A stretch of 64,000 nt of DNA from Azospirillum sp. B510 (GTDB lineage: Bacteria; Pseudomonadota; Alphaproteobacteria; Azospirillales; Azospirillaceae), in assembly GCF_000010725.1 (NCBI RefSeq), contig NC_013856.1:124001-188000 (forward strand), read 5' to 3'. The notes beneath the pieces are model-generated. The model was not told the DNA's origin and ran no database searches. It saw nothing but the letters and a program-made list of their open reading frames with translations. Positions 1 to 23,500 of this stretch are shown one piece after another (position 1 is the stretch's first letter; every line of letters begins with the position of its first letter). The translations under genes were made by a program, and so were the position numbers.

Positions 1-410
1 ATCGATGGGGCGGGGGCCTTGGCGATTTCCGCGGTCAGGCGGGCCAGATCGATGCGCAGGCTGGCCAGACGGCGGGCCAGCTCGACCGCCTCGGCCTGCG
101 CCTTGGTCGGGTCGAGGCGGAACAGCGGCTGGCCGCGGCTGACGCGGTCGCCCTCCGACGCCAGGATTTCGGTGACGATGCCGCCTTCCAGATGCTGGAT
201 CGCCTTGACCCGGCTGGCCGGAACCACCTCACCCGACGCGGTGGTCGCGACGTCGAGCGGGCCGACCGCCGCCCAGGCCCCCAGCGCCAGCAGCACGGCG
301 GCGATCTCCAGCGCGATGCGCCTACGGCTGGGCAGTGGGCGGCTGGGCAGTGGGCGGCTGGGCAGGGGGCTGACGGTAGTAGCCGGTTGGGGGAGCGCGG
401 TCATGGTCAT
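1..410 (-). CDS. HlyD-family type I secretion membrane fusion protein (N-terminal part, cut by window edge)
   Basis: Periplasmic adaptor of a type I secretion system; it would bridge the inner-membrane ABC exporter and an outer-membrane channel. Reading leftward from ATG at 410, a short cytoplasmic leader containing three PSRPL repeats is followed by one hydrophobic helix (about residues 30-48). Then comes the typical HlyD beta-barrel/lipoyl-type start (TTASGEVVPASRVKAIQHLE, then EGGIV and EGDRVSRGQPLFRLD) and the beginning of the alpha-helical hairpin. The start overlaps the stop of the ABC gene as ATGA (407-410), which suggests translational coupling. The C-terminus lies outside the window. 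Family assignment is firm; the cargo is inferred from the neighbouring adhesin. Confidence 0.9.
   Translation of the reverse strand, partial: MTMTALPQPATTVSPLPSRPLPSRPLPSRRRIALEIAAVLLALGAWAAVGPLDVATTASGEVVPASRVKAIQHLEGGIVTEILASEGDRVSRGQPLFRLDPTKAQAEAVELARRLASLRIDLARLTAEIAKAPAPS
326..370. repeat. Three tandem 15-bp repeats in the HlyD leader
   Basis: The unit GGCTGGGCAGTGGGC occurs three times in a row (326-340, 341-355, 356-370), the last with one mismatch. On the coding strand it encodes PSRPL three times in the cytoplasmic leader of the HlyD-like protein. The unit length keeps the frame, so slippage would change only leader length. Confidence 0.85.
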
Positions 411-2116
411 TGCGCGGCCCTCACCGTCGCAGGCATAGGCATGGGCACAGGCGGTTGTACGCCGGACGCCGCGCCGTCCAGCCGGACGATGCAGCGGGCG
501 CCGTTGAGGATGACCGGGTCATGGCTGGCGATGATCAGGGTGCGGCCCCGCCGGGCCAGCGCGATCAGGCGCTGGTAGACCAGCTGGGCTCCCTCGCGGT
601 CGAGTCCCTCGGTCGGCTCGTCGAGCAGGTAGAGCGGCCCGTCGGTGACCAGCGCGCGGGCCAGCCCCAGGCGGCGGCGGATGCCCGGAGCCAGGGTGCG
701 CCCGCCATCCTCCAGGACCAGATCGAGATGGCGCGGGTGGCGGTTGACCAGATCGGCGAGGTCGGCCTCGGCGAGGGCGCGCAGCAGGTCGGCGTCGGTG
801 GCGTCGGGCCGGGCGAGCCGCAAATTGTCGCGCAGGGTGCCGGGCAGGAACAGCGGCTCCTGCGGCAGGTAGGACACTTGCGACCGCCACCAGTCGAGCG
901 AGAGCACCCGCAGGTCGGCCCCATTCGCCAGCACCTGCCCGCGGCTCGGCTCGATCAGGCCGGCGAGCAGCTTCAGCAGGGTCGATTTGCCCGACCCGTT
1001 GCGCCCGGTCAGCACAACCACCCCGCCCGGCTCCACCGTTACGTCGAGGCCGGAGAACACCGGCTCCTCGCGGCCGGGGAAACTGGCGGCGACTCCGCTC
1101 AGCGTCAGGCCGCCGGTCCAGTCGGCCAGGGTTCGACCGCCCGCTCGCTCGACGGCGACCCCGGCGAAGCGCCGGGCCTCGGCCAGGGCGGCGGCGGCGG
1201 TGCGCAGGGTGCGGCCGTACTGGACGATGCGGCCGAACGGCGACAGCACCCGCCCGGCGATCAGGTTGGCCCCGACCAGCGTGCCGACGTCCAGCGTGCC
1301 GGCCACCACCTGCATGCCGCCCACCGCGATCACCGCGATGCTCAGCAGCCCCTGCGTCGCCTGGGTGAGCGACGCGCCGTGCAGGTGCAGCCAGCCGACC
1401 CGCTCGCCGGTTAGGCGGGCCTGCTCGGCGAGGATCCGCCAGCGCTCCATCAGGGCGGCGTGGGCACGGAAGTGGCGTACCGTCTCGGCGGCGTGGACGG
1501 CGGCGGCGACCAGCGCGTTGACCTCGCCGGTTGCGCGGTTCATCGCCGCCGCAGGCGCGGCCAGCCGCCGCTGGTCGATCCAGGCCAGCAGCGCCAGCCC
1601 AGCGCAGAAGCCCCCGGTGACCACTGCCAGCGTCGGCGACAGCAGCGCCAGCACCGCCAGCACCATCAGCGAGAAGGGCAGATCGGCGATCGTGGTCAGT
1701 CCGGCCGGTCCGAAGGCGGCGCGCGCCCGTTCGGTTCCGCGCACCAGCTCTTCGCGCGCCGCCGGGCTCCAGGCCGCCTGGGCGCGCAGATCGGCGGTCA
1801 GCGTCAGCCCGAACACCCCGGTGGCGAGACGGCGGTCCTGGTCGCCGGCGATCGCCTCGGCGATCACCCAGCGCAGCTTGCGGAGCTGGTGTTCCGCCGC
1901 CACCGCCAGAACGGCCCCCGCGGTCAGCGTCAGCAGGGTGCCGGACACCCCATGGGTGACGTAGCGGTTCAGCACCTGGATGACGAACAGCGACACCGCC
2001 AGCCCCAGCACCGCCAGCAGGGCGCTGACCGCCAGCAGTTGGACGGCCTCGCCCGGCGCCCGCGCCATGCGCGCCACAAGCTCGGCGAAGCCGGACGGCG
2101 GGGAAAGCGCGGTCAC
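407..2116 (-). CDS. Type I secretion ABC transporter (permease-ATPase fusion)
   Basis: A 569-residue inner-membrane exporter of the PrtD/HlyB class without an N-terminal C39 peptidase domain. The N-terminal half is a multi-helix transmembrane domain (hydrophobic segments near residues 28-48, 60-75, 150-180 and 245-275). The ATPase domain shows Walker A GRNGSGKST (about residue 375), Walker B LYLLDEPTEGLD (about 498) and an H-loop ASHDP. The ABC signature is degenerate (LAPGIRRRLGLARAL instead of LSGGQ). The GTG start at 2116 overlaps the upstream stop as GTGA, so I prefer it to longer starts inside the upstream gene. It is coupled at its end to the HlyD gene. Likely substrate, by proximity, is the giant VCBS protein at 5303. 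Confidence 0.9.
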   Translation of the reverse strand: MTALSPPSGFAELVARMARAPGEAVQLLAVSALLAVLGLAVSLFVIQVLNRYVTHGVSGTLLTLTAGAVLAVAAEHQLRKLRWVIAEAIAGDQDRRLATGVFGLTLTADLRAQAAWSPAAREELVRGTERARAAFGPAGLTTIADLPFSLMVLAVLALLSPTLAVVTGGFCAGLALLAWIDQRRLAAPAAAMNRATGEVNALVAAAVHAAETVRHFRAHAALMERWRILAEQARLTGERVGWLHLHGASLTQATQGLLSIAVIAVGGMQVVAGTLDVGTLVGANLIAGRVLSPFGRIVQYGRTLRTAAAALAEARRFAGVAVERAGGRTLADWTGGLTLSGVAASFPGREEPVFSGLDVTVEPGGVVVLTGRNGSGKSTLLKLLAGLIEPSRGQVLANGADLRVLSLDWWRSQVSYLPQEPLFLPGTLRDNLRLARPDATDADLLRALAEADLADLVNRHPRHLDLVLEDGGRTLAPGIRRRLGLARALVTDGPLYLLDEPTEGLDREGAQLVYQRLIALARRGRTLIIASHDPVILNGARCIVRLDGAASGVQPPVPMPMPATVRAAQ

Positions 2117-5100
2117 GCCGGCACCTCCGCGGCGGCGGTGGCGGGCAGGGCCTCGCGGGCGGTCTCCACCTCGCCTTGGGTCGGCGACCAGGGGATGCCG
2201 TTGGCCTGGAAGCGCTCCCACACCCGCGCCAGCACCTCGTGCACCGTCTTGTTCTCGTCATTCCCCTTCAGGAGCTGGAACTTCAGCCGGTAGCGCGCCG
2301 CCCAGATGCCGTTGGTGCATTCCACCCCCTTGAACTGGCAGTCGGGGCCGAAATAGCCGCTGGCGAGATTGCCGAAGCAGTCGAAGGTGTCGAGCGCCTC
2401 CTTTGCCAGTCGCGACACCAGCCGCGGATCCTGGGTGGGATCGACGAAAAGCTGGATCCGGACGAAGTTGGCGTCGGAATCGCTGAAATTATGCACCTCC
2501 GCCTCGGAGATCTTGGCGTTGGCGAGACAGACCAACTGCCCTTCCAGATGGCGGATGCGCACCGTCCGCCACGTGATGTCGAGCACCTGCCCCATCACCG
2601 AGGAGCCGATCTTGATGTAGTCGCCGACCTTGAACGGCCGTTCGATGTTCAGCACGATACCGGAAAAGATGTTGGCGATGTTGGCCTGTACCGCCAGACC
2701 GATGATCATCGCCATCAGGCCGGAGGTGGCGAGCAGGCTGGTCACCGGCTTGGCGAAGACATAGGCGATGACCCCGAAGATGGCGAACAGATAGACCACC
2801 AGCGCGGTGAACATGCGGATGACGTTGGGCACCTTGCGCTGGGCGCGGATCTCCAGCGGGACCCAGATGAACCGCTCCAGCGCGATGACCGCCAAGCGGG
2901 CCGGGACGATCCACCACAGAATGCTGTAGACAGCCACCACCATGTCGATGGCCCCGGTCGGCATATTCGCCAGCGCATAGTCGAGCGCCATGTTGCCGGC
3001 CGACAGCAGCAGCAGCGGCCAGCACACCAGCCGCAGTCCCAGCGTCTGCATGCGCCAGAACTGCCCGCGGTCCTTGCGGTCGAGCAGCATCGCCAGGGCC
3101 GAGCCGACCAGCGCCACGATGGCGATGTAGACGAACCACTCCGTTGGCACATAGTCACGCACGTCGATGGTGTCGGTCTTCAGCAGCGCTCCCATGTCGA
3201 GCTGGGAGAAGCTGGGCTGCGGCTTGCCGAAGCCGACGAAGGCGGGATCGCCCTCCGAGATGCGTTCGAACACGTCCTGGGAAATCCAGGCCCGCCCCAC
3301 CGTCCAGCCCGGCGCCCCGGCCAGGGCGCGCAGGCGCTGAAGCATCCGGGTCAGCGTGTCCACCTCGTCGCCGTCATGGCCGAGCCAGCCGAGCACCTTG
3401 CCGAACGTCGACCATTCGCCGCCCCCGCCCCCGTCGATCGACAGCGAGCCGGCGACGCTGTCGGTCAGCGAGGTCGAGGCGTTCAGGTTCAGGCCCAGCA
3501 CGTCGCTGACATACATCAGGTTGTTGCGCGCCAGCGTGCGGTGGCGGAACGCGATGCCGACGACATGGGTGCCGTAGGCGCGCTCCACCGCGGAATAGTT
3601 GGTGTAGAACGTCCCCTTGACCCGATAGGAATGATACAGCATGTCGCCGACCTGGACCTGCCGCTCCGGCTTGTCGAGCTTGATCGGCTGCACAGCGTTG
3701 GTGAAGACGACATCCTGCGGAGCGAAGTCGCCGCGCCAGCGGAACCACAGGGTCAATTGCAGATCGGCGGTGCCGGCGGACGGATCAAAGCCGCTGATCT
3801 TGTCGATGGTGACGCCCGAATAGACGACGTTCGTCTTGTACATGAAGCGGTCGTTGACGTAGAGCGCGCGGCCGGCGACCAGCTCGTCCAGGTAATTGCC
3901 GATATTCTCCTCGCGGATCGGCGAGAGCTGGGTCAGCGCGGCGATCAGCGACAGCCCGTCATAGGTGCCGACATACGCGGTCGGCATCGCCGCCCCGGCG
4001 GCGTCGAAGCCCAGCGGCCCCAGCACCCCGTTGACCACTCGGCCGGGCTTGGCGAGGGCGGCATGGGCGCGGTCGCGCAGCAGCTTGATGTCTCCCGCCG
4101 CCGGCCGCGGCGCGCCGCGCGGGGCCAGATCGTGCAGCAGCAGCCGGGCGCCCTCGTAGGCGGTGGCCGAGACCCAGTCGGGCGGCGCGTGGTGGGCCTT
4201 GGTGTAGTCGTTGCGGAATGCCTGCGCCTGCTCGCCCGCGGTGTCGTACAGCAGCGGCGTCGAGACGAAGGTGCCGTGGAGGCCGGCGGCGGGGGTGCCG
4301 TTGCCCGACCACGCGGCGCGGTAGGCGTCGAGGAAGGCTTGCGTTGCCAGGGTGCGCGGGCCGGCGACCCGGTTGCGCACGCCGCCCTTGCGCAGTTCGG
4401 CGACGACCGCGCCGGCCGGGCGCGGGTCGGCCAGCACCACCACGCTGCCGCTGACGCGGGCCTCGCGCATCTCGCGGGCGATCCGCGCCGCCCGCTCGCC
4501 GAGGTCGGCCGCCGGGTCGATGTCCCAGCGATTGAGCACCTTGGTGCCGAACCGCTGCATCACCTCGTCGAACAGGGTGGCCTGCGCCTCGCCGTCCGGG
4601 CCACGTTCGTGGATCACCGAAACCACCTTCTCGCCCAGCACGTTGCGGACGTAGTTGGCGAGGAAGCGCGTCTCGAAGCTGCGGTCGAAGGTCAGGTGGA
4701 ACAGCCAGGGCTCACCGGGCTTCGCCTCGGCCGGTCCCGGTGTTCGGGCCGGGGCGGGGGTCAGGGCCGGAACCCCGGCGGAGCGGTAGATTTCGGCCGC
4801 CGCCGCCGCCGCCGCGTCCGACCAGTGGCCGACCACGCCGGCCACGCCTGCGGCGGCCAGCTTTTCGGCGGCGGCGCGGGCGGTTGCCGGATCGTCGGCA
4901 TCATCCACAACTATTATGTGCACCGGTAGGCCGGCGATGCCCCCCATACGGTTGACATGGGCAACGTACAATTCAACGCCGTCACGGATGGCGCGGCCAA
5001 GATCGGCCCGCTCCCCCGTCAGAGGAACGGCCATGCCCAGACGGATCTCGCCGTCGGCTGCCCGGTTCACCGTCAACCGGAAGGCCAGCGACAAAACCGC

Positions 5101-5181
5101 CGCCACCAGCACGGCGACGCCCAGCATCAGCAGGAACAGCGAGCGCTTTGAGAGTCCGGCCAGTTTGTCCCAGAACGCCAT
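2113..5181 (-). CDS. Periplasmic ligand-binding domain fused to an MscS-type channel
   Basis: A 1022-residue multi-domain membrane protein. Residues about 14-36 are an N-terminal membrane anchor. Residues about 40-425 resemble type I periplasmic binding proteins of the Leu/Ile/Val class (RLGMAVPLTGERADLGRAI near the start). Residues about 430-590 form an extra beta-rich region with the strand ADLQLTLWFRWRGD. Several transmembrane helices follow between about 683 and 812. The C-terminus carries the MscS pore helix and beta domain (GLMAMIIGLAVQANIANIFS, then NIERPFKVGDYIKIG). The architecture suggests a channel gated or tuned by a periplasmic small molecule. It is the first gene of the secretion operon and its stop overlaps the ABC start. 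Domain calls are confident; gating and ligand are unknown. Confidence 0.85.
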   Translation of the reverse strand: MAFWDKLAGLSKRSLFLLMLGVAVLVAAVLSLAFRLTVNRAADGEIRLGMAVPLTGERADLGRAIRDGVELYVAHVNRMGGIAGLPVHIIVVDDADDPATARAAAEKLAAAGVAGVVGHWSDAAAAAAAEIYRSAGVPALTPAPARTPGPAEAKPGEPWLFHLTFDRSFETRFLANYVRNVLGEKVVSVIHERGPDGEAQATLFDEVMQRFGTKVLNRWDIDPAADLGERAARIAREMREARVSGSVVVLADPRPAGAVVAELRKGGVRNRVAGPRTLATQAFLDAYRAAWSGNGTPAAGLHGTFVSTPLLYDTAGEQAQAFRNDYTKAHHAPPDWVSATAYEGARLLLHDLAPRGAPRPAAGDIKLLRDRAHAALAKPGRVVNGVLGPLGFDAAGAAMPTAYVGTYDGLSLIAALTQLSPIREENIGNYLDELVAGRALYVNDRFMYKTNVVYSGVTIDKISGFDPSAGTADLQLTLWFRWRGDFAPQDVVFTNAVQPIKLDKPERQVQVGDMLYHSYRVKGTFYTNYSAVERAYGTHVVGIAFRHRTLARNNLMYVSDVLGLNLNASTSLTDSVAGSLSIDGGGGGEWSTFGKVLGWLGHDGDEVDTLTRMLQRLRALAGAPGWTVGRAWISQDVFERISEGDPAFVGFGKPQPSFSQLDMGALLKTDTIDVRDYVPTEWFVYIAIVALVGSALAMLLDRKDRGQFWRMQTLGLRLVCWPLLLLSAGNMALDYALANMPTGAIDMVVAVYSILWWIVPARLAVIALERFIWVPLEIRAQRKVPNVIRMFTALVVYLFAIFGVIAYVFAKPVTSLLATSGLMAMIIGLAVQANIANIFSGIVLNIERPFKVGDYIKIGSSVMGQVLDITWRTVRIRHLEGQLVCLANAKISEAEVHNFSDSDANFVRIQLFVDPTQDPRLVSRLAKEALDTFDCFGNLASGYFGPDCQFKGVECTNGIWAARYRLKFQLLKGNDENKTVHEVLARVWERFQANGIPWSPTQGEVETAREALPATAAAEVPA

Positions 5182-5302: not shown

Positions 5303-8300
5303 TTGCAATTGGGGGTGACCCGCGTGGCGGAGGAAATAGACCTCGACGGTTGGGCTGCGCCCAAGGGATTCATCGATGCGTTGGCGGCCGGCGACGAGGT
5401 TGGCGGCGCCTACGCTTCGATTCGCGGCGACCTCGTGACCCGTCTGGCCGCCCAGGGGGTGCAGGCGGACGCCGCGCCGCGACTCGCCGACGAGATCGTT
5501 CATCGTTACGTCGAACTGCTCGCCAAGGGGGTGGATCCCGAATCGGCGTCGCAGGAGGCGCGCCGGGTCTGGGTGGACGATGTCGCCCTCGGCCGGGCGG
5601 CGCCTGCGACCACCGACCCGTTGCTTCAGGCGCTGGCGAGCGGGGCCGACGTCCATGCGGTGGTGCAGCAGGCGGCCGGCGGGTTGCCGGATGCCGATGC
5701 GCTGGCCCGCGCCGTCGCCAGCGGCCGGCCGCTTGCCAGCGAGTTGAAGGCCGCGCTCGAAGCGGCGCATGCCCAACAGGGTGGCAGCGCGGTGGAGACC
5801 ACCGCCGGCGACAAGCTGGCCGCCGCCCTCGCGGCCGGGGGGGGCGCCGCGTCCCAGGCGATCGCGGATGCTGTCGCCGGCATGTCGCCCGAACATGCCG
5901 CCGCCTTCCTGGCGCAATTGCAGGCGTCGCTGGCCTCGGGAGTTGCGGCTGACGGCGCGCTCGCCAACGCCCATGCGGCGGCGGCGGCGGCGACGCCGCC
6001 TTCGGTGCCGATGGACGCGGCCCGGCAACTTGCCGCGGCACTGGCGGCGGGCGGAACGGCGGCCGAGCAGGCGGTCGCCGCGATGACCGGCGGAATGAGC
6101 GCCGGAGTCGCCGGGACCTTCGCCGACCGGCTGACCGCGGCGCTGGCCGCCGGCCAGAACCCGGCGGCGGCGATGGCCCAGGCGGCGCAGGCCGCCAACG
6201 CCGCAAGCAACGCGCTGGCGGCGAGCGGGGTGCCGCTGTCCGATGGCGACCGGCTGGTCGCCTCCCTGGCGCAGGGGCTGGTCAGCGGCGACGTGCTGAG
6301 CAACCCATCGCTGTCCTCTGTGGTCGATGCACTGGCGGGGGGACGCTCCACCCAGGCGGCGGTGACGGAGGGGCGGGCGGCCGCGGCGGCGGCGAACGCC
6401 CAGCAGACGGCGACAGCGGTGCCCGCCGATCCACTGTTGGCGGCGCTGGCTTCGGGGCAGGGGGCACAGCAGGCGCTGAGCGCCGCGGCGCAAGGCGGCG
6501 GTGATGCCCAGACCTTCGTTGCCGCGCTGTCCGCCGCGCTGGACGGCGGCAAGTCGATGGCCGACGCCCGCAGCGACGCCGCCCAGACCTCCGCCGCCGC
6601 ACAAGCCGCCGAGACGGCGACCCAGGTTGCGCCAACCTCTCCGGCCCAGCCGACCTCACCGTCGTCGCTGCCGGGAGCCGATCCGTCGACGCTGCCGGTC
6701 ACCGTGGCTTCCGCGGACTCCGGACCGCAACAAACCGCTCTGGTGGCATCGCCCACGAGCACCCCGGATCCGTCGCCGACCGGGCCGGTGGTCGCGCCGC
6801 CCCCTCCTCCCTCCCCACCAGCACCTCCGCCCCCTCCGCCGCCCCCTCCGCCGCCGCCGTTGCTCGACCCACCGGCGCCGCCTGTGCCGAGCCCGACCGC
6901 CGTGACCAGCCCGACCTCGGTGCCGGCCCCGGTCGACGCCACCTCCTCTCCTCCCGCTCCGCCTCTTCCCCCACCTCCGCCACCCCTTCCTCCTCCCGTC
7001 ACGCCGACGACCCCGCAATCGCCCGTGAACCATGCGCCGGTGGCGGTGGCCGATGCCGGCATCGCGGTGGAGGCGGGCGGGACCAACAACGGCACGGCGG
7101 GCAGCAACGCCACGGGCAACGTACTGACCAACGACACTGACGTGGACAGCGGCGACACCAAGACGGTCTCGGCGATCACCGGCGGGACGGTCGGCAGCGC
7201 GCTGGCCGGCACCTACGGCACGCTGACGCTGAATTCCGATGGCAGCTACACCTATGTCGTCAACGATGCGAACGCGACCGTTCAGGCGTTGCGGACCAGC
7301 GCCGACACGTTGACCGAGACCTTCACCTACACCATGAAGGACACCGCCGGGCTGACCAGTTCGGCGACGCTGACCATCACCATTCACGGGGCCGACGACG
7401 CTCCGGTGGCGGTGGCCGACAGCGGCACGGCGGTGGAGGCTGGCGGGACCAGCAACGGCACGGCGGGCAGCAATGCCACCGGCAACGTGCTGACCAACGA
7501 TACCGACGTGGACAGCGGCGACACCAAGACGGTCTCGGCGATCACCGGCGGGACGGTCGGCAGCGCGCTGGCCGGCACCTACGGCACGCTGACGCTGAAT
7601 TCCGATGGCAGCTACACCTATGTCGTCAACGATGCGAACGCGACCGTTCAGGCGTTGCGGACCAGCGCCGACACGCTGACCGAGACCTTCACCTACACCA
7701 TGAAGGACACCGCCGGGCTGACCAGTTCGACCACCCTGACCATCACGATTCACGGGGCCGACGATGCGCCGGTGGCGGTGGCCGATACCGGCACGGCGGT
7801 GGAGGCAGGCGGGACCAGCAACGGCACGGCGGGCAGCAATGCCACGGGCAACGTGCTGACCAACGATACCGACGTGGACAGCGGCGACACCAAGACGGTC
7901 TCGGCGATCACCGGCGGGACGGTCGGCGGCGCGCTGGCCGGCACCTACGGCACGCTGACGCTGAATTCCGATGGCAGCTACACCTATGTCGTCAACGATG
8001 CGAACGCGACCGTTCAGGCGTTGCGGACCAGCGCCGACACGCTGACCGAGACCTTCACCTACACCATGAAGGACACCGCCGGGCTGACCAGTTCGACCAC
8101 CCTGACCATCACGATTCACGGGGCCGACGATGCGCCGGTGGCGGTGGCCGATACCGGCACGGCGGTGGAGGCAGGCGGGACCAGCAACGGCACGGCGGGC
8201 AGCAATGCCACGGGCAACGTGCTGACCAACGATACCGACGTGGACAGCGGCGACACCAAGACGGTCTCGGCGATCACCGGCGGGACGGTCGGCGGCGCGC

Positions 8301-11300
8301 TGGCCGGCACCTACGGCACGCTGACGCTGGGGACCAGCAACGGCACGGCGGGCAGCAATGCCACGGGCAACGTGCTGACCAACGATACCGACGTGGACAG
8401 CGGCGACACCAAGACGGTCTCGGCGATCACCGGCGGGACGGTCGGCGGCGCGCTGGCCGGCACCTACGGCACGCTGACGCTGAATTCCGATGGCAGCTAC
8501 ACCTATGTCGTCAACGATGCGAACGCGACCGTTCAGGCGTTGCGGACCAGCGCCGACACGTTGACCGAGACCTTCACCTACACCATGAAGGACACTGCCG
8601 GGCTGACCAGTTCGGCGACGCTGACCATCACCATTCACGGGGCCGACGACGCTCCGGTGGCGGTGGCCGACAGCGGCACGGCGGTGGAGGCTGGCGGGAC
8701 CAGCAACGGCACGGCGGGCAGCAATGCCACGGGCAACGTGCTGACCAACGATACCGACGTGGACAGCGGCGACACCAAGACGGTCTCGGCGATCACCGGC
8801 GGGACGGTCGGCGGCGCGCTGGCCGGCACCTACGGCACGCTGACGCTGAATTCCGATGGCAGCTACACCTATGTCGTCAACGATGCGAACGCGACCGTTC
8901 AGGCGTTGCGGACCAGCGCCGACACGCTGACCGAGACCTTCACCTACACCATGAAGGACACCGCCGGGCTGACCAGTTCGACCACCCTGACCATCACGAT
9001 TCACGGGGCCGACGATGCGCCGGTGGCGGTGGCCGATACCGGCACCGCGGTGGAGGCTGGCGGGACCAGCAACGGCACGGCGGGCAGCAATGCCACGGGC
9101 AACGTGCTGACCAACGATACCGACGTGGACAGCGGCGACACCAAGACGGTCTCGGCGATCACCGGCGGGACGGTCGGCGGCGCGCTGGCCGGCACCTACG
9201 GCACGCTGACGCTGAATTCCGATGGCAGCTACACCTATGTCGTCAACGATGCGAACGCGACCGTTCAGGCGTTGCGGACCAGCGCCGACACGCTGACCGA
9301 GACCTTCACCTACACCATGAAGGACACCGCCGGGCTGACCAGTTCGACCACCCTGACCATCACGATTCACGGGGCCGACGATGCGCCGGTGGCGGTGGCC
9401 GATACCGGCACCGCGGTGGAGGCTGGCGGGACCAGCAACGGCACGGCGGGCAGCAATGCCACGGGCAACGTGCTGACCAACGATACCGACGTGGACAGCG
9501 GCGACACCAAGACGGTCTCGGCGATCACCGGCGGGACGGTCGGCGGCGCGCTGGCCGGCACCTACGGCACGCTGACGCTGAATTCCGATGGCAGCTACAC
9601 CTATGTCGTCAACGATGCGAACGCGACCGTTCAGGCGTTGCGGACCAGCGCCGACACGCTGACCGAGACCTTCACCTACACCATGAAGGACACCGCCGGG
9701 CTGACCAGTTCGACCACCCTGACCATCACGATTCACGGGGCCGACGATGCGCCGGTGGCGGTGGCCGATACCGGCACCGCGGTGGAGGCTGGCGGGACCA
9801 GCAACGGCACGGCGGGCAGCAATGCCACGGGCAACGTGCTGACCAACGATACCGACGTGGACAGCGGCGACACCAAGACGGTCTCGGCGATCACCGGCGG
9901 GACGGTCGGCGGCGCGCTGGCCGGCACCTACGGCACGCTGACGCTGAATTCCGATGGCAGCTACACCTATGTCGTCAACAACAGCAACGGCACGGTACAG
10001 GCGTTGGCGAGCAGTTCCGACACGCTGACCGACAGCTTCACCTATACCGTGAGCGACACCGCCGGGCTGACCAGTTCAACCACGCTGACCATCACGATCC
10101 AGGGGGCCAATGACGCTCCGGTCGCGGTCAACGACACCGGCTCCGCCACCGAGGCCGGCGGGACCAACAATGGGACGGCGGGCAGTAATGCGACAGGCAA
10201 CGTGCTGGCCAACGATACCGATGTCGATACTGGGGCCTCCCTCTCGGTCAGCGCGGTGCGGACGGGGAGCACCGAGGGGGCGGGCACCGCCGGCACGCTC
10301 GGCAGCGGCCTTGCCGGCAGTTACGGCACGCTGACGCTGAACGCCGACGGCAGCTACACCTATGCGGTCGACAACAGCAACAGCACGGTCAACGCGCTGG
10401 CCGTGGGAGCGACCCTGACCGACAGCTTCAACTACACCGTCTCCGATGGCAGCCTGACCGACAAGGGCGTGCTGACGATCACCATCAACGGGGCCAACGA
10501 CGCCCCGACCCTGACCTCGATCAACACGCTGACTGGCGCCACCAAGGACACCGCCTTCACCATCAGCTACGCCACGCTGGCGGCGGCGGCCAACGAGGCA
10601 GACGTCGATGGCGATACGCTGAGCTTCCGGATCGACGCCGTCAGCTCCGGCACGCTGACCAAGAACGGCACGGCGATCACCGCCGGGACCACGACTCTGT
10701 CGTCGGGGGAGTCGCTGGTGTGGACGCCGGCCTCCGGCGCGACCGGCACCCTCAACGCCTTCACCGTCAGCGCCTATGACGGGTCACTGGCTTCGGCGAC
10801 GCCGACCCAGGTGGCGGTGACTGTGGCCGACGTCTCCACGGTGACCGGCATCAGCGTTCTGAAGACGGTGACGCCGAGCGCGGCGAACACCCATTATACG
10901 TTCAATCTGAACGGGGTGAACGGCAGCGATACCGTGCTCTACCTGGCGTTCGAAAGCGGATTCGATCCGTCGGCCGGCGGTCTCGATACCACGGGCGAGG
11001 CGTTGGCCAAGGCCAATTCGCACAGCATTTCCGGTTCGGGATCATCGCAGTTGGTCTTCGTTGGCAATCTGGACGGCAACGGGGTGCCGATCACTGATGT
11101 GAACAACGCGAATTATTATACGCATTCCTTTTTCTTCAACGATGATTCCAACGGGACTCTCAGCTCGACCATCGCGTTCACGCCGGACAATACCAATTCG
11201 GTCTATGTCTTCGGCGGCGGCTACAACGGGGCCACGGTGTCCTACCACCTGCTGCTGAACGGCGTGGCCGACCCTCCGCTGCCGCCGGTGGCCGAGGATC

Positions 11301-12379
11301 AGACGGAGATCCCGGGCGTCGCGCTGTCCAGCCTGTCCTGGGTCGCCACTCCGCTGGCGGTCGTGGTGATCGGCAACGACGCGACCGAGCAGCAGGGACA
11401 GTGGCAGTACAGCGCCACGGCCGGGGCGAGCTGGACGACGCTGGCGTCCGGAGAGACGCTTCCGGTGACGCTGCGCCCGGACGATCTGTTGCGCTTCCTG
11501 CCGGCGGCGAACTGGCATGGCGCGCCCGGCGGCTTGACGGTCGGGCTGGTCACCGCCGCCGACGGGGAGATTTCGACCCAGGAGGTGATTTCGACCCTGG
11601 TTACGGCGGTCAACGACGCGCCGGTCGCCAGCGGGTCCGCTCTCCTCCCGCAGTCCAGCGCCGGCGGCCCGGATGCGGCCGGCACGGCAGTCGCCACCCT
11701 GTTCGCCGGCAACTTCAGCGACGCCGCCGACGTGGTGTCCGGATCGCATGGCGATACGCTGGCCGGCATCGCGGTGGTGGGGGATGCGGCGACCGCCGAG
11801 CAGGGGATCTGGCAGTTCAGTACCGATCAGGGGCGAAGCTGGACCGCGATCACGGCCGGCGTGTCCGACCAGTCGGCGCTGGTGCTGAAGGCGTCGGACC
11901 AGGTGCGCTTCGTGGCCGGCGCGGAGACCGCCGGCGCGCCGGCTCCGCTGGCGGTGCGGCTGATCGAGACCGGCGGAACCCTGCCGGTCAGCGGCAGCGT
12001 GATCGACCTTGGCAGTCCCGGCGCAGTCGGCGGCAGCAACCACGTCAGCGCCCAGACTGTTTCGCTCGCGGTGGGAACTCCGGAAAACACCCCGGCCCCG
12101 TCCTTGGCGCCGGCCGACCGCGAAGCGATCACCGTGGCGCATGGCGCTGACTACAAGGGCATGGTGCTGGGTAGCGACCAGCCGGGCGAGAGTTTCAGCT
12201 ACGCGCTCAACGCCGCGTCGCTGCACAACGCCTCGCTGGTCAGCCACAGCGAGGGGGCGAGCTTCAGCTACCAGTATCATGCCGAGGGAGCGGCCGGTTC
12301 CACCGACAGCTTCCTGGTGGACGTCACCGATGCCAATGGCCACACCATCGCTCACACGGTGAACGTCCATATCGTATGA
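5303..12379 (+). CDS. Giant VCBS-repeat surface/adhesin-like protein, probable type I secretion substrate
   Basis: A 2358-codon protein. Residues about 1-495 are Ala-rich with roughly five degenerate 60-residue units built around L(A)AALA(S/A)G. Residues about 495-572 are a Pro-rich linker with long proline runs. About nine VCBS-type repeats follow (APVAVAD start, NVLTNDTDVDSGDTKTVSAI core, ending TLTITIHGADD). From about 1735 there is a cadherin-like segment (NEADVDGDTLSFRID) and an unassigned C-terminus. No Sec signal peptide and no GGxGxDxUx RTX repeats are visible, so export would rely on an uncleaved C-terminal signal. It is divergent from a type I secretion operon. The start is uncertain: TTG 5303, TTG 5309, GTG 5315 and GTG 5324 are in frame. 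No clear Shine-Dalgarno decides between them. Confidence 0.85.
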   Translation: MQLGVTRVAEEIDLDGWAAPKGFIDALAAGDEVGGAYASIRGDLVTRLAAQGVQADAAPRLADEIVHRYVELLAKGVDPESASQEARRVWVDDVALGRAAPATTDPLLQALASGADVHAVVQQAAGGLPDADALARAVASGRPLASELKAALEAAHAQQGGSAVETTAGDKLAAALAAGGGAASQAIADAVAGMSPEHAAAFLAQLQASLASGVAADGALANAHAAAAAATPPSVPMDAARQLAAALAAGGTAAEQAVAAMTGGMSAGVAGTFADRLTAALAAGQNPAAAMAQAAQAANAASNALAASGVPLSDGDRLVASLAQGLVSGDVLSNPSLSSVVDALAGGRSTQAAVTEGRAAAAAANAQQTATAVPADPLLAALASGQGAQQALSAAAQGGGDAQTFVAALSAALDGGKSMADARSDAAQTSAAAQAAETATQVAPTSPAQPTSPSSLPGADPSTLPVTVASADSGPQQTALVASPTSTPDPSPTGPVVAPPPPPSPPAPPPPPPPPPPPPLLDPPAPPVPSPTAVTSPTSVPAPVDATSSPPAPPLPPPPPPLPPPVTPTTPQSPVNHAPVAVADAGIAVEAGGTNNGTAGSNATGNVLTNDTDVDSGDTKTVSAITGGTVGSALAGTYGTLTLNSDGSYTYVVNDANATVQALRTSADTLTETFTYTMKDTAGLTSSATLTITIHGADDAPVAVADSGTAVEAGGTSNGTAGSNATGNVLTNDTDVDSGDTKTVSAITGGTVGSALAGTYGTLTLNSDGSYTYVVNDANATVQALRTSADTLTETFTYTMKDTAGLTSSTTLTITIHGADDAPVAVADTGTAVEAGGTSNGTAGSNATGNVLTNDTDVDSGDTKTVSAITGGTVGGALAGTYGTLTLNSDGSYTYVVNDANATVQALRTSADTLTETFTYTMKDTAGLTSSTTLTITIHGADDAPVAVADTGTAVEAGGTSNGTAGSNATGNVLTNDTDVDSGDTKTVSAITGGTVGGALAGTYGTLTLGTSNGTAGSNATGNVLTNDTDVDSGDTKTVSAITGGTVGGALAGTYGTLTLNSDGSYTYVVNDANATVQALRTSADTLTETFTYTMKDTAGLTSSATLTITIHGADDAPVAVADSGTAVEAGGTSNGTAGSNATGNVLTNDTDVDSGDTKTVSAITGGTVGGALAGTYGTLTLNSDGSYTYVVNDANATVQALRTSADTLTETFTYTMKDTAGLTSSTTLTITIHGADDAPVAVADTGTAVEAGGTSNGTAGSNATGNVLTNDTDVDSGDTKTVSAITGGTVGGALAGTYGTLTLNSDGSYTYVVNDANATVQALRTSADTLTETFTYTMKDTAGLTSSTTLTITIHGADDAPVAVADTGTAVEAGGTSNGTAGSNATGNVLTNDTDVDSGDTKTVSAITGGTVGGALAGTYGTLTLNSDGSYTYVVNDANATVQALRTSADTLTETFTYTMKDTAGLTSSTTLTITIHGADDAPVAVADTGTAVEAGGTSNGTAGSNATGNVLTNDTDVDSGDTKTVSAITGGTVGGALAGTYGTLTLNSDGSYTYVVNNSNGTVQALASSSDTLTDSFTYTVSDTAGLTSSTTLTITIQGANDAPVAVNDTGSATEAGGTNNGTAGSNATGNVLANDTDVDTGASLSVSAVRTGSTEGAGTAGTLGSGLAGSYGTLTLNADGSYTYAVDNSNSTVNALAVGATLTDSFNYTVSDGSLTDKGVLTITINGANDAPTLTSINTLTGATKDTAFTISYATLAAAANEADVDGDTLSFRIDAVSSGTLTKNGTAITAGTTTLSSGESLVWTPASGATGTLNAFTVSAYDGSLASATPTQVAVTVADVSTVTGISVLKTVTPSAANTHYTFNLNGVNGSDTVLYLAFESGFDPSAGGLDTTGEALAKANSHSISGSGSSQLVFVGNLDGNGVPITDVNNANYYTHSFFFNDDSNGTLSSTIAFTPDNTNSVYVFGGGYNGATVSYHLLLNGVADPPLPPVAEDQTEIPGVALSSLSWVATPLAVVVIGNDATEQQGQWQYSATAGASWTTLASGETLPVTLRPDDLLRFLPAANWHGAPGGLTVGLVTAADGEISTQEVISTLVTAVNDAPVASGSALLPQSSAGGPDAAGTAVATLFAGNFSDAADVVSGSHGDTLAGIAVVGDAATAEQGIWQFSTDQGRSWTAITAGVSDQSALVLKASDQVRFVAGAETAGAPAPLAVRLIETGGTLPVSGSVIDLGSPGAVGGSNHVSAQTVSLAVGTPENTPAPSLAPADREAITVAHGADYKGMVLGSDQPGESFSYALNAASLHNASLVSHSEGASFSYQYHAEGAAGSTDSFLVDVTDANGHTIAHTVNVHIV
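7034..10501 (+). repeat. Tandem 366-bp VCBS-coding DNA repeats
   Basis: Units encoding 122 residues start at 7034, 7400, 7766, 8132, 8651, 9017, 9383 and 9749. A more diverged 387-bp unit starts at 10115. Units 2-8 are almost identical in nucleotide sequence, far beyond what protein-level selection needs, which implies recent amplification or gene conversion. Between 8132 and 8651 the spacing is 519 bp because 153 bp are duplicated in frame. Confidence 0.95.
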
Positions 12380-16803: not shown

Positions 16804-17888
16804 GATAGCGTCCGTCAAGATGGTGGAAATTCGGATGCGCGCTGAGGTGGCCATTGTTCAGGCGGCCTTGGGTGGAGAGGTGATGGCCGGTTGGCTTTCA
16901 CTGGCCGGCGTCAGCTCGGCCATGGCCTCGACCTGCATGTAGGGGTTCTGGGTCTGCCATTCGTCGTTCTGTTCGAGGAGCACCGCGCCGATCAGTCGGA
17001 TGATGGATGCCTCACCTGGGAAGATGCCGACGACGTCGGCGCGGCGTTTGACCTCCTTGTTCAAGCGTTCCAAGGTGTTGGTGCTGTGCAGCTTGGTGCG
17101 ATGCTGGGCGGGAAAGCCCATGTAGGCAAGCACGTCATGCTCGCTGCTGTCCATGAAGGAGGCCAGCTTGGGCCATCGGTCGCGCATCTGCTCGGCGATA
17201 TGGCGGAAGGCTTGGTGAGCGGCTTCGGCGTCGGGCTGGAGAAAGGCCTGGCGCAGAGCGGCGGCGGCCATGGAGTTCTGGGCCTTGGGCACATAGGCGA
17301 GCGCGTTGCGCATCCAGTGGACTCGGCAGCGCTGCCAAGTGGCGCCCATGACACGGGCGATGGCGGCCTTCAGCCCTTCATGGGCATCGGAAATCACCAG
17401 CTTCACGCCCTTCAGGCCGCGGGCCTTGAGTTTCTTGAGAAAATCGCTCCAGAACACCTCGGCTTCCGACGGGCCGATGTGCAGGCCGACGATCTCGCGC
17501 TTGCCCTCGGTGTTGGCGGCCACGGCGATTATGGCAGCGACGGAGACGATGCGTCCACCCTCGCGCTGCTTGAGGTAGGTGGCGTCCAGCCACAGGTAAG
17601 GCCAGTCGCCCTCCAGCGGACGGTCGAGGAAGGCGTTGACCCGCTCGTCGATGTCTCGGCACAGCTTGGAGACCGTCGACTTCGAGATCCCCGACAGACC
17701 CATCGCCTGGGCCAACTCGTCAACGCGGCGGGTCGAGACACCGCCGATCCAGGCTTCCTGGATCACCGCCACCAGGGCTTTCTCGCTGGTCTTGCGGGCC
17801 TCCAGGAAGGGCGGGAAGTAACTGCCCTGACGCAGCTTGGGGATGCGCAGGTTCAGCGTGCCCAGGCGCGTATCCAGCGCCCGGTCGC
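16804..17888 (-). mobile_element. IS256-family element, copy A (left part of transposase gene deleted)
   Basis: Nearly identical to the intact element at 58022-59438 but in the opposite orientation. The terminal repeat starts GATAGCGTCCGTCAAGATGG at 16804. The match ends at 17888 within the codons for DRALDTRLG, where sequence of an IS701-like element begins. Confidence 0.9.
16858..17888 (-). pseudogene. IS256-family transposase, N-terminally truncated (copy A)
   Basis: Retains the Mutator/IS256 DDE core: WLDATYLKQREGGRIVSVAA (first Asp), KLVISDAHEGLKAAIARV (second Asp) and STNTLERLNKEVKRRADVVG (Glu). About 60 N-terminal codons are missing compared with the intact 402-residue copy at 58176, so the DNA-binding region is lost. 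It reads out of frame or into foreign sequence upstream of 17888. Presumably inactive. Confidence 0.85.
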
Positions 17889-18686
17889 TTCACCAGCCGC
17901 AAGGGTCTTCCAGTCGTCCTTCGCCAAGCCCTGCATGATGGCGGCCGGATCGGTCTGGATGAGTTGCCACTCTTCCAGGAAGCGCAGCGTATGGTTCGAA
18001 CGGACCGCCAAAACATAGGGCTGCCCGCGCTTCTCCAGCAGGTGACGGAAACGGTAATCGGATCCGTAAAGGGAATCCGCCAGCACCCAGGCACAGGGCA
18101 ATCCGTGATCCAATGCGCGGGCGATCATCTCGCACGCCATCGCCGGCTTTGTTGCAAACGAAACCGCCTCTGGCACGGACGCCCGTTTGCGGCGCTCGGC
18201 ATCGGCAGCCCAATCCTTTGGCAGGTAAAGGCGCCGGTCGATCAACGCGTGTCCGAAACGGCTGGCATAGCCGACGAATACGCCGACCTAGCAATTCTCG
18301 ATCCGTCCGGCCGTCCCAGAATACTGGCGTCCAACTCCGACCGACTGAACACCTTTCTTCAGAAATCCGGTCTCGTCCACCACCAGAACACCATCGTCAT
18401 CGCCCAATGCTTTCGGTGCATAATCGCGAACTCGATCGCATACGGCATCCGCCGACCACGAACTCCGGCCCAAAAGAGACTGAAGACGGTAAGGCCGATC
18501 CAACCCGGCCTCTTCCACCAAAAGCCAACCCGTCTTGCGCTCCGCGCCAGAAAGGAGGCCATCAATGAAGTGTCCCGCCGAGCGACGGGTTTCAGACCGA
18601 CCCAGCGCCGGAGAAAGACAGTCCTTCAACGCCAACAACGCCGAACCCCAATCGACCGTCGTTCCGCTCCACTCTGATACCGTCAT
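17889..18686 (-). pseudogene. IS701-family transposase with an amber stop and lost C-terminus
   Basis: Starts at ATG 18686 (MTVSEWSGTTVDWGSALLAL) and shares DGVLVVDETGFLKKGVQSVG and RQYSGTAGRIENC with the intact family. At 18288-18290 the codon is TAG where the other IS701 copy has CAG (ENCQIGVF). The same frame then continues as VGVFVGYASRFGHALIDRRL and VLADSLYGSDYRFRHLL, so this is a simple nonsense mutation rather than a frameshift. The end is cut off by the IS256 junction. Sequence similarity to the other IS701 here is only moderate, so it is a different element. Confidence 0.85.
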
Positions 18687-18748
18687 TGCTCCGCCTACGG
18701 CCGTGACGGACAGCGAATCACAACAGCCTAAAATCCGCAACTGTAGTA
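17889..18748 (-). mobile_element. Second IS701-family element, truncated
   Basis: The upstream end CTGTAGTA at 18741-18748 matches the TACTACAG terminus of the complete IS701 element at 14346. The other end is lost at the junction with IS256 copy A (17888/17889). Confidence 0.75.
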
Positions 18749-18765
18749 CTCGTCAGAATCACTGA

Positions 18766-19575
18766 TCAAACGACGGTGTCGCTCTTCCATTGACCCGATG
18801 CCTGGTCTGACACCTCGCGCAGGATTGCCTGCAGCGACATCATCTCTGCCGTGAGCCGGTCGGCTGGACCGGCAATCGCCATCGTCCCCATCAGGGTCCC
18901 TTCGGCGGTAAAGACAGGTGCAGCGATTGCGGCTGATCCCAGGACCATACGGCCAATGCTGACCGCCATCTTATTCACTCTGATATCCTCGATCAATCGC
19001 CGCAGCTCATCGGCGCTTGTCAGAGTCGCCGGAGTGATTCGTTCGAATTTGGCCGTCCGCAGGTAATCCTCGAGCCAGGCCTCATCCTGATAGGCCAGCA
19101 GCACATTCCCAACTGCAGAGCAATACAGAGGAAGTGTACTACCGACCGGCATCGTATAACGGATCGGGTTGCTACCGTCGATGACTTCCACGCAGCTCGC
19201 CAGTTTCGACCTGGCGTCCAAAACAGAGAAGTAAACAGTCTCTTGGACCCGGAGCGCGATTTTTTCTACATAGGGCCGGATAAGCAAGCGTAGATTTCTC
19301 GCAGCCAGCACGCTGGCAGACAATCTGAAAATGCGCGCGCCAAGCCGGTAACGTCCTCCTGAGTGGAGAAGATATCCTTCCGCCACCAGGGGGCGAAGCA
19401 GGGTGAGAAGGCTGCTTTTCGGTGCTCCGAGGTGAACCCCCAGGTCGGCCAGCGACATTCCGTCGTTCGCCTCGGCAAGGGCTTCGAAAAGCCCGAGAAT
19501 ACGCATCAGCGATCGTGGCCCGCTGATATCCTTATCGGCAGTCTTGGCTGTGGTCTTTTCAGTTTGATCGACCAT
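18766..19575 (-). CDS. IclR-family transcriptional regulator
   Basis: A 269-residue regulator of normal IclR length. The N-terminal winged helix (about residues 20-85: RSLMRILGLFEALAEANDGM, LGAPKSSLLTLLRPLVAEGY) is followed by the effector domain (about 95-255). That domain contains YRLGARIFRLSASVLAARNL, MPVGSTLPLYCSAVGNVLLA and GSAAIAAPVFTAEGTLMGTM. Proteins of this class often control aromatic or other catabolic operons. Here both neighbours are insertion sequences, so its target is not evident. It may once have controlled a divergent gene starting near 19681, or genes of the island to the right. Codon use looks like the chromosomal neighbours. Confidence 0.9.
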   Translation of the reverse strand: MVDQTEKTTAKTADKDISGPRSLMRILGLFEALAEANDGMSLADLGVHLGAPKSSLLTLLRPLVAEGYLLHSGGRYRLGARIFRLSASVLAARNLRLLIRPYVEKIALRVQETVYFSVLDARSKLASCVEVIDGSNPIRYTMPVGSTLPLYCSAVGNVLLAYQDEAWLEDYLRTAKFERITPATLTSADELRRLIEDIRVNKMAVSIGRMVLGSAAIAAPVFTAEGTLMGTMAIAGPADRLTAEMMSLQAILREVSDQASGQWKSDTVV

Positions 19576-19775
19576 GAAATAATTTCCCTCAATATTATTT
19601 GGCTTCCGGAAGCTTTAACCCGCCGGATCATAAAACATTTCATGGCTGAACGGTAAAGTCATTGGTATGCACACCATGAGATGAGGTTGCCTGCATTCTG
19701 GAAACCTATGCGTGCCGCCTATGCTGAACGGTCATTCGACAATATGAACGACCGAAGCCGCTCCGTCAAGTATGC
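19576..19775. other. IclR upstream region and possible start of a destroyed divergent gene
   Basis: This 200-bp AT-richer stretch lies upstream of iclR. An open frame from ATG 19681 (MRLPAFWKPMRAAYAERSFD) runs rightward into the first ISAs1 element at 19776-19786 and has no natural end. It may be the beginning of the gene once regulated by the IclR protein. I do not recognise it, and it could be fortuitous. Confidence 0.35.
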
Positions 19776-19785
19776 CACCCAGGGC
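19776..19785. repeat. 10-bp CACCCAGGGC, left flank of ISAs1 element 1
   Basis: Identical to 21053-21062 and 22287-22296. ISAs1 elements generate 8-10 bp target duplications, and this 10-mer abuts the terminal repeat CAGGGCGATTC at 19786. Confidence 0.85.
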
Positions 19786-21052
19786 CAGGGCGATTCAAAG
19801 AAAGCCGTTTTTGACGGTTGCGATTGTGGCACAGCGATCTTCGGCGCATGCCATGCGGACGGCGGGGAGTGGGGCGCCGAAGAGATTGGCGATGCCCAGC
19901 ATGGTGTTGCGCAGCATCGCCATGGCCTGTGGCACGGCGCCGGATCGCACCCGGCTGGCGTCTTCGCTCAAGAGGACGTCACGCCTCCAGTGCAGGCGGT
20001 TCTCGATGCCCCAGTGGTCGCGGGCGAGCGCGAGCAGCGCCGCAGGCGAGGCGTGGTCGCGGTCCAGGCTGGTGATGACGTAGACGGTTTCGTGCGAGAT
20101 CGCGCCCTTGACCTCGCGGGTCCGCTCGATGCGGCAGACCTGCGCCACGCCGGGCCAGTCGAGCGCGGGAACGACCTCGCGGCTGACGGTGATGCGGCGG
20201 GTTTCGATGCGCCCGTGCCCCTTCTCCACGGTCTGCGCGCCCTCACGGTCCGGCGGCGGCCCGTCCAGGGCGGGAGGCGGGGGCTGGCCCTGGAACGCCG
20301 CCACCAGCTCCGGGGGGAAAAGCGTCACCGAAGGCGACGGCGAGATCGGCCATCAGCGCCGGTTGGTTGGCTTTGACGGTGAACAGATAATCGCCGCCGC
20401 CGTCGCGGATGGCTTGGCAGATGGCGCGCTGACAGAACACCGCATCCCCGGTGATTACCGCACCGCCCAGCGGCAGGCTCTTGAGCAGCGTCAGCGCGGC
20501 GGTGATCTCGTTGGCTTCGGGCGGCACCCGCAACTGGCCGATCACCGTCCCCAGCCGGCTGGCGAAGGCGGCCAGCAGATGCACGCCTTCGCTGCCATCG
20601 TGCCCGGCCGGCGCGCTGCCCTTCAGGCGCTTGCCGTCGAGCGCCACATGTCCGACCGGGCCGGAGCCGCGCGCCCATTCCCCCAACACCGCCTCGGCCG
20701 CCGTAACGTCCAAAGCCTTGAAGAAATAGTGGTACATGGCGTGACACGGCGCCCGCTCCAGGCCCAGCAGGTAAAGAGCCTCGGGCGGCAACCGTCGCCC
20801 CCAGCGAAAGATCGCCATCAGGTCGTTGGCCCCCGCCAGCATCGCCGAAAGCGCCAAATCAAAACCGATGCCAGAGGGTACTGCCGCCCCTTCCGGCCCC
20901 GGCGATCCGGGATCGCTCCCACAACCTCCCACAACGTCCGCGGTCCACCCCTCATCGCTCCGACTCTCCGGCTCGGTTCCTGCCGATAGCCTTGTGAATC
21001 AACCGACGACTCGCGTCACCCGAATTTCATCCACCTTCTCTGAATCGCCCTG
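19786..21052 (-). mobile_element. ISAs1-family element 1
   Basis: Terminal repeats CAGGGCGATTC (19786-19796) and its complement GAATCGCCCTG (21042-21052) are bordered on both sides by CACCCAGGGC. It contains a broken transposase gene on the minus strand. Confidence 0.85.
19795..20955 (-). pseudogene. ISAs1-family transposase, two frameshifts
   Basis: From ATG 20955 the first frame gives MRGGPRTLWEVVGAIPDRRG, the usual ISAs1 start. At about 20865 the coherent frame changes (LALSAMLAGANDLMAIFRWG, VGHVALDGKRLKGSAPAGHD, ITGDAVFCQRAICQAIRDGG). At about 20250-20325 it changes again (VEKGHGRIETRRITVSREVV, LARDHWGIENRLHWRRDVLL, MLRNTMLGIANLFG). All family blocks are present in order, so two small indels have inactivated a full-length gene. 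Confidence 0.85.
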
Positions 21053-21062
21053 CACCCAGGGC
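21053..21062. repeat. 10-bp CACCCAGGGC between ISAs1 elements 1 and 2
   Basis: Second copy of the 10-mer. It abuts the right end of element 1 (GAATCGCCCTG) and the left end of element 2 (CAGGGTCATCGCATTTGG). Confidence 0.9.
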
Positions 21063-22286: not shown

Positions 22287-22296
22287 CACCCAGGGC
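22287..22296. repeat. 10-bp CACCCAGGGC between ISAs1 elements 2 and 3
   Basis: Third copy of the 10-mer. On its right the terminal repeat CAGGGGAATCGCAT of a third ISAs1 element begins at once. Confidence 0.9.
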
Positions 22297-22582
22297 CAGG
22301 GGAATCGCATACGGAAAAGCCTTGCCATTCCTATCGGATTTGATTCTACCCGGCGGACCGATTTGGGCGTTGGGGGAACGAGATGGAAGGGTTCAAAGCG
22401 TGCTTTGGAGCGCTGGACGATCCACGACGGGGCAATGCTCGTCAACACGACCTTCATGAAATGCTGATGATCGCTCTCTGCACGTTCCTGTGCGGTGGGC
22501 GAACCTGCATCGACATGGCGGAGTTCGCTGACGAACGTCAGGAGTTTCTGGGCGAATTCCTCACCTTAAAGGGCGGTCCGCC
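22297..22582 (+). mobile_element. ISAs1-family element 3, left fragment
   Basis: Begins with the ISAs1 terminus CAGGGGAATCGCATACGG and holds the start of a transposase gene on the plus strand. It is cut at 22582/22583 by the end of the IS21 element, and the rest is not found in the window. Confidence 0.85.
22383..22582 (+). pseudogene. ISAs1-family transposase, N-terminal fragment
   Basis: ATG 22383 opens MEGFKACFGALDDPRRGNAR, then LHEMLMIALCTFLCGGRTCI and ADERQEFLGEFLTLKGG. These match the N-terminal domain of the intact ISAs1 transposase at 21068 (DALPDPRTGNAKRHDLLEIL, FLRLENGVPSHDTF). The coding sequence ends at the IS21 boundary after about 65 codons. Confidence 0.85.
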
Positions 22583-22734
22583 TGCGTATTTCGGCGAATT
22601 CGCCCAGGCGTTTCGGTTGAAAGCGCCCACCGTTTCGGCGAAAGCGCCCACCCGAATTGCAAGCTGGTGGGAGCCGGGGCCGAACCCTGGATTTACGTTA
22701 TGAAGGTTGTGGGTTTGGTTGCCAAGCACCGGCC

Positions 22735-23490: not shown

Positions 23491-23500
23491 CGTATCTCCG

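Follow-up and report, generated by a model that had tools for sequence, protein, structure and literature searches.

What kind of channel results when a periplasmic binding domain and an MscS pore are encoded in one open reading frame, and what lies between the two? The question is raised by a gene in a 64,000-nt stretch of the Azospirillum sp. B510 genome (GCF_000010725.1, contig NC_013856.1, forward-strand positions 124,001-188,000; hereafter, the window). A Pfam search with the whole 1022-aa protein identified Peripla_BP_6 at residues 45-399 and MS_channel_2nd at residues 835-900 (E values in the table), with no match between residues 399 and 835, which leaves about 430 residues unexplained. 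Judging by the full-length relatives, with 43-77% identity, that recur in most genomes of the genus, the ORF is a genuine gene rather than a chance ORF; mis-assembly was also considered as the origin of the three-module gene and rejected.

Coordinates of the features discussed (window positions unless a genome locus is given)
Feature	Position	Strand	Evidence or remark
Whole gene: PBP - pLGIC-type ligand-binding domain - MscS channel, 1022 aa	2113..5181	minus	ATG start
N-terminal membrane helix, residues 12-38	5068..5148	minus	AlphaFold2 model helix; Lys/Arg before the helix
Type I periplasmic binding domain, two lobes, residues 45-421	3919..5049	minus	Pfam Peripla_BP_6 E 1.7e-38; Foldseek 4gnr
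pLGIC-type extracellular ligand-binding beta-sandwich, residues 446-669	3175..3846	minus	Foldseek, VIA-align, profile matches
Cys-loop/pro-loop counterpart, residues 529-545	3547..3597	minus	aromatic-P-x-D lost: AYGT, Asp -> Gly537
Variable helical insert within the sandwich, residues 566-622 (approx.)	3316..3486	minus	low pLDDT
Membrane domain of five helices, residues 682-847, ending in the MscS pore helix TM3 (813-847)	2641..3138	minus	AlphaFold2 model; phmmer
MscS cytoplasmic beta and alpha/beta domains, residues 850-993	2203..2634	minus	Pfam MS_channel_2nd E 4e-18; model
Type I secretion ABC exporter	407..2116	minus	GTG start
HlyD gene, after the exporter, outside the window	G000:C3:123082-124410		
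TolC (OEP) gene, after the exporter, outside the window	G000:C3:121728-123074		
Giant cadherin/Big_9-repeat protein, 2358 aa, divergent upstream	5303..12379	plus	Cadherin_4 E 2e-143, Big_9 E 8e-92

An earlier note on this DNA had proposed that a binding domain, a beta-rich region and an MscS channel are joined in this single ORF, and Pfam, AlphaFold2 and Foldseek jointly confirm this arrangement. In the full-length AlphaFold2 model (mean pLDDT 83.5, from an alignment of 53 sequences), the order from the N to the C terminus is an anchor, a two-lobed PBP, a middle beta-domain, and the pore followed by the cytoplasmic domain of an MscS channel. The N-terminal helix is likely oriented N-in, which would place the binding domain and the sandwich in the periplasm. 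The two-lobed binding fold that the same note had assigned to residues 40-425 is present in the model and resembles LivJ: model residues 46-421 matched 4gnr with a Foldseek E value of 4e-22 and a TMt of 0.87, so that Pfam and the fold search agree on a PBP-I fold. The closest solved binding domains are those of branched-chain amino-acid and aromatic-acid binders, and, as a guess, the ligands could be amino acids or aromatic acids. The positions that align with Ser79 and Thr102 of LIVBP, which we take to be the classical amino-acid contacts, vary across the PBP-LBD-MscS proteins in a sequence alignment; with these positions not conserved, the ligand may be a different one in some members, or absent.

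The PDB fold search with the full model was crowded with binding proteins, and the middle domain was therefore modeled and searched separately. The input alignment consisted exclusively of MscS-pore relatives, which makes leakage of pLGIC sequences into the fold test impossible. In the full-length model, the core of the domain has pLDDT >90. Acetylcholine-binding proteins and nicotinic receptor ectodomains were the top matches listed by Foldseek against the PDB (best E 7e-9), and VIA-align, run on candidates taken from Foldseek and thus not independent of that result, gave Z of ~14-15 over ~150-165 residues against GABA-A receptors, sTeLIC and ELIC. Together with the chain of profile matches described below, the fold identifies a pLGIC-type extracellular ligand-binding sandwich. 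The suggestion that the middle region vaguely recalls the extracellular sandwich of ligand-gated channels is thus borne out, by fold and by sequence, more strongly than it had been put. The strand singled out in that note, ADLQLTLWFRWRGD, corresponds to residues 471-484 and was modeled as a beta strand. A distinct beta-domain is indeed present where residues 430-590 had been delimited, but its actual span is 446-669. In the AlphaFold2 model this domain is separate from the membrane domain rather than a mere part of it, and the idea that the middle region derives purely from the membrane part was rejected. The helical insert within the sandwich is poorly conserved and missing from many relatives, in which the middle domain measures ~203 aa compared with 241 here.

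Homology between the middle domain and pLGICs is detectable stepwise. A profile built from the middle domains of MscS-pore proteins only matched, in a whole-genome scan, a PBP-pLGIC (L041; E 2e-12), a 754-aa protein that consists of a PBP, the same middle domain and then a four-helix pLGIC pore. A wider profile that includes this 754-aa protein retrieved, in a search of the phylum, proteins of ~1000 aa (MscS pore), ~710-800 aa (pLGIC pore) and ~370-420 aa, the last being the length of a stand-alone pLGIC. In profile-profile comparisons, the middle domains of the MscS-pore proteins matched the ligand-binding domain of the PBP-pLGICs at 99.4% (E 4e-21), and the PBP-pLGICs matched canonical bacterial pLGICs at 99.7% (E 3e-25) over the sandwich and the four transmembrane helices, compared with at most 0.7% for reversed or unrelated controls. 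Compared directly with seven canonical pLGICs, the middle domain gave a weak match (5%), which rose to 71% once a stand-alone pLGIC from Sulfuritalea joined the set. That protein was the one match outside the family genes that the MscS-only HMM yielded among 1730 ORFs in the fetched loci (E 1.3e-9), and it was also found by the HMM of canonical pLGICs (E 5e-17). Its gene (L140:7298-8296) lies directly downstream of a PBP-LBD-MscS gene in a Sulfuritalea bin, where the two kinds of pore may operate together.

Routine searches did not expose this relationship. Sequence searches of Pfam and the PDB with the middle domain alone returned nothing useful, and one weak PDB match, to Mce1F (E 0.009, 46 residues), was judged to be due to chance. 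The Pfam profile Neur_chan_LBD has no match to the 1022-aa protein and only rarely detects pLGICs in the class or phylum, which makes Pfam unfit for counting PBP-LBD-MscS proteins.

The membrane and cytoplasmic parts belong to a different superfamily. Residues 742-903 matched E. coli MscS (2vv5) with a phmmer E value of 6e-13, MS_channel_2nd scored 65.7 bits against a Pfam cut-off of 20.2, sufficient for inclusion in the MscS superfamily, and the pore helix is strongly conserved, with its GLAxQ/NIxSG and RPFxxGD motifs. The pore helix, the beta-domain and the cytoplasmic alpha/beta domain are shared with E. coli MscS and YnaI, to which the window protein adds ~640 periplasmic ligand-sensor residues and, ahead of the MscS-like core, two further membrane helices. 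In place of the 4-TM pore of pLGICs, there are five helices that end in the MscS pore helix. The Cys-loop/pro-loop of pLGICs contacts the pore domain and participates in gating. A role of its acidic residue has been noted (PMC549065). In our alignment rows, the aromatic-P-x-D motif of this loop is present in 11 of 11 relatives with a pLGIC pore and in none of 53 proteins with an MscS pore, where the Asp position is mostly Gly, and the window protein likewise lacks the motif at the pore interface. Loss of the motif is the outcome expected if the partner pore was replaced. With both the 4-TM pore and the pro-loop motif absent, the protein is best classified, as far as its sequence goes, as a member of the MscS superfamily outside the pLGICs that contains one domain homologous to them. 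We consider it practically certain that this is a natural chimera of three modules, with an entire PBP-pLGIC ectodomain placed upon an MscS-family pore. A deep-branching PBP-pLGIC (L161:5724-7859) has a WPFD pro-loop and a sandwich akin to those of the MscS-pore proteins (LWYRWKGDFDIDNIVLTNATD); two small putative ion-channel-like membrane proteins are encoded beside its gene.

Several known systems share parts of this architecture. Fusions of PBP-I with ART-LGIC have been described for Magnetospirillum and Bradyrhizobium (PMC549065); such PBP-pLGICs share both periplasmic domains and their order with the window protein, and sequence homology is detectable throughout, but they retain the pro-loop motif and a 4-TM pLGIC pore, which the window protein lacks. 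An extra periplasmic domain is also stacked on the pLGIC sandwich in DeCLIC and in other pLGICs that have N-terminal domains (PMC12664993); in DeCLIC, however, the extra lobes are jelly rolls and the pore is that of a pLGIC. The bCNG channels likewise join an MscS pore to a ligand-binding domain (PMC4560390), but these sense a cytoplasmic nucleotide at the C terminus, whereas the sensors of the window protein are periplasmic and N-terminal, and Pfam found no C-terminal cyclic-nucleotide-binding domain in it. A paralogue in the same genome (G000:C3:48004-50613; loci L021 and L042) combines a PBP, the sandwich and an MscS pore with a C-terminal cNMP domain, and relatives of this four-module protein are present at loci L024-L026 and L040. 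In the open-access literature searched, no description of an MscS pore bearing a pLGIC domain was found. Ligand-binding domains are, however, present in some of the 15 MscS subfamilies (PMC4560390), so that the pairing of PBP with MscS may be noted elsewhere.

A scan of GTDB genomes yielded 80 named loci, a set derived from a narrow alignment and therefore biased toward MscS-pore members close to the window protein; in all of them, similarity between an ORF and the window protein extends through the middle domain, and nearly all continue into the MscS part, a few ending at a contig end. These loci come mainly from Rhodospirillales and other Alphaproteobacteria and from Magnetococcales, with some from Beta- and Gammaproteobacteria and one from a Desulfamplus bin; several belong to MAGs with doubtful-looking names. 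Of the latter, L116, titled Mesoflavibacter, is most similar to Pacificispira (Rhodospirillales), and L151 is titled Helicobacter cetorum; both titles are probably misfits. The binding domain and the sandwich occur jointly in all relatives with enough sequence to judge. The predicted combination of a PBP and a pLGIC ligand-binding domain with an MscS pore is thus conserved across dozens of proteobacterial genomes.

In the tree of the combined PBP and ligand-binding domains, a single branch (support 89/97) separates the MscS-pore proteins from the pLGIC-pore proteins. In the sandwich-only tree that includes canonical pLGICs, most of the latter branch outside (support 97), and the MscS-pore group lies within an unresolved PBP-pLGIC group (support 94). 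Given this topology, a single exchange is the simplest reading, and the 4-TM pLGIC pore was probably replaced by an MscS pore once; both trees contain long branches that meet, so that they favor one exchange well but not decisively.

The genomic context provides a further clue to function. The GTG start of the adjacent exporter gene overlaps the TGA stop of the channel gene by 4 bases (GTGA at 2116-2113), and the divergently transcribed 2358-aa protein is likely the secreted adhesin of the same system. It contains many near-identical repeats of ~100 residues, one of which is shortened in frame (GTLTLGTSNGTAGSN), which suggests recent loss or gain of repeats. Secretion genes are within reach at 42 of 81 loci, and T1SS genes and/or an adjacent ORF of at least 1000 residues were found at 52 of the 54 loci with enough flanking sequence, or at 32 of 34 when the near-identical Azospirillum clade was left out. 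Giant ORFs were tallied by length, and the eight proteins subjected to a domain search contained bacterial Ig, cadherin, laminin-G, MBG or Calx-beta repeats. Depending on the group, the secretion genes are located downstream, upstream, on both sides or divergently, which argues against mere inheritance of one ancestral arrangement. With ~15 exporters of this kind per 7.6 Mb in this genome, chance proximity would be expected in a few percent of cases. Some functional link between the channel and its neighbors is therefore highly probable, and the context tips the balance, if less firmly, toward a link with adhesin export in particular. Elsewhere in the window (16858-23971), the minus-strand ORFs 16861-17772, 21071-22198 and 22738-23971 resemble insertion-sequence transposases by reading.

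The neighborhood of the PBP-pLGIC genes is different, with T1SS or giant-ORF neighbors at none of 12 loci. In Magnetococcales-type genomes, these genes are mostly followed (L153-L157, L159, L160 and L163) not by an adhesin gene but by a chemoreceptor-like one, whose membrane-protein product matches the MCP signaling domain weakly (below the Pfam cut-off; four examples searched). Such a neighbor fits the idea of a role in chemotaxis put forward in PMC549065.

Taken together, we assign a probability of about 0.65 to the explanation that the protein is a ligand-gated chimera with an MscS pore that is tied to surface adhesion. Under this proposal, a small periplasmic solute would close the two-lobed binding domain; closure would change the sandwich, which would pull the first of the five membrane helices, and this movement would open, bias or sensitize the MscS pore and so let ions or small osmolytes out. 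Sensitivity to tension could be reduced or retained as a second input. The flux of ions or osmolytes might then inform or adjust the adhesin exported by the adjoining type I secretion system so that, for example, surface attachment is tuned to a nutrient or host cue. Considered on its own, ligand gating of the pore is the side to which we lean, and it has a precedent in the cyclic-nucleotide-gated bCNG members of the MscS superfamily cited in PMC4560390.

The two channel types differ in symmetry: pLGICs are pentamers, whereas MscS channels are heptamers (PMC4560390), so that a ring of sandwiches like that of pLGICs may not form. More tentatively, and at somewhat less than even odds, the pLGIC ectodomain itself may gate the MscS pore, with the PBP as a second ligand input, and control adhesion via the coupled secretion system, in which case a five-fold sensor would drive a seven-fold pore, or the sandwiches would form an unprecedented seven-fold ring, or no ring at all.

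The ordinary MscS character of the pore and the cytoplasmic domain, the variability of the classical ligand-contact positions and the fact that MscS-family members with large periplasmic domains (MscK) can be tension-gated would all fit a protein that is chiefly a tension-gated valve, in which the PBP and the sandwich form an accessory cap that tunes the tension threshold or assembly in the absence of ligand gating. Nevertheless, we consider this unlikely because both periplasmic modules are sensor domains that the relatives retain as a pair, and because, in the PBP-pLGICs, this pair is joined to a pore of the ligand-gated type. Moreover, MscS subfamilies with no observed mechanosensitivity have been noted, and the bCNG branch cited, in PMC4560390. 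Slightly less likely still is a sensor for transport or signaling in which the signal from the PBP reaches the coupled secretion ABC transporter by way of the MscS cytoplasmic domain, with conductance incidental: although the overlap with the ABC gene and the conservation of secretion or adhesin neighbors in several different gene orders would be compatible with such coupling, the strong conservation of the pore helix and of both motifs is what would be expected if conduction matters, and many relatives have the adhesin with no secretion gene within 5 kb. Finally, that the middle domain is a generic beta-sandwich resembling pLGICs by convergence is very improbable and was rejected: the weak direct profile match to canonical pLGICs alone and the missing Pfam call are outweighed by the strong stepwise homology via PBP-pLGICs and the stand-alone pLGIC, by the pLGIC ectodomains at the top of the fold matches, and by the position of the sandwich between the PBP and the first pore helix, as in PBP-pLGICs.

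The favored reading, a ligand-gated chimera with an MscS pore, bears on how ion channels evolve. In a 2005 survey, the varied bacterial pLGICs all kept a core of the ligand-binding domain and the 4-TM pore (PMC549065). The PBP-LBD-MscS proteins break this rule, carrying the same sensor on a pore of another superfamily with a different symmetry; evolution appears to have exchanged the pore beneath a ligand sensor. These proteins provide a natural test of the portability of ligand-sensor modules between ion channels, of how coupling is rebuilt after loss of the pro-loop motif, and of how a five-fold design can be fitted to a seven-fold pore. They also supply candidate ligand-gated MscS channels and, in root-associated Azospirillum and its relatives, a possible chemical switch for adhesion.
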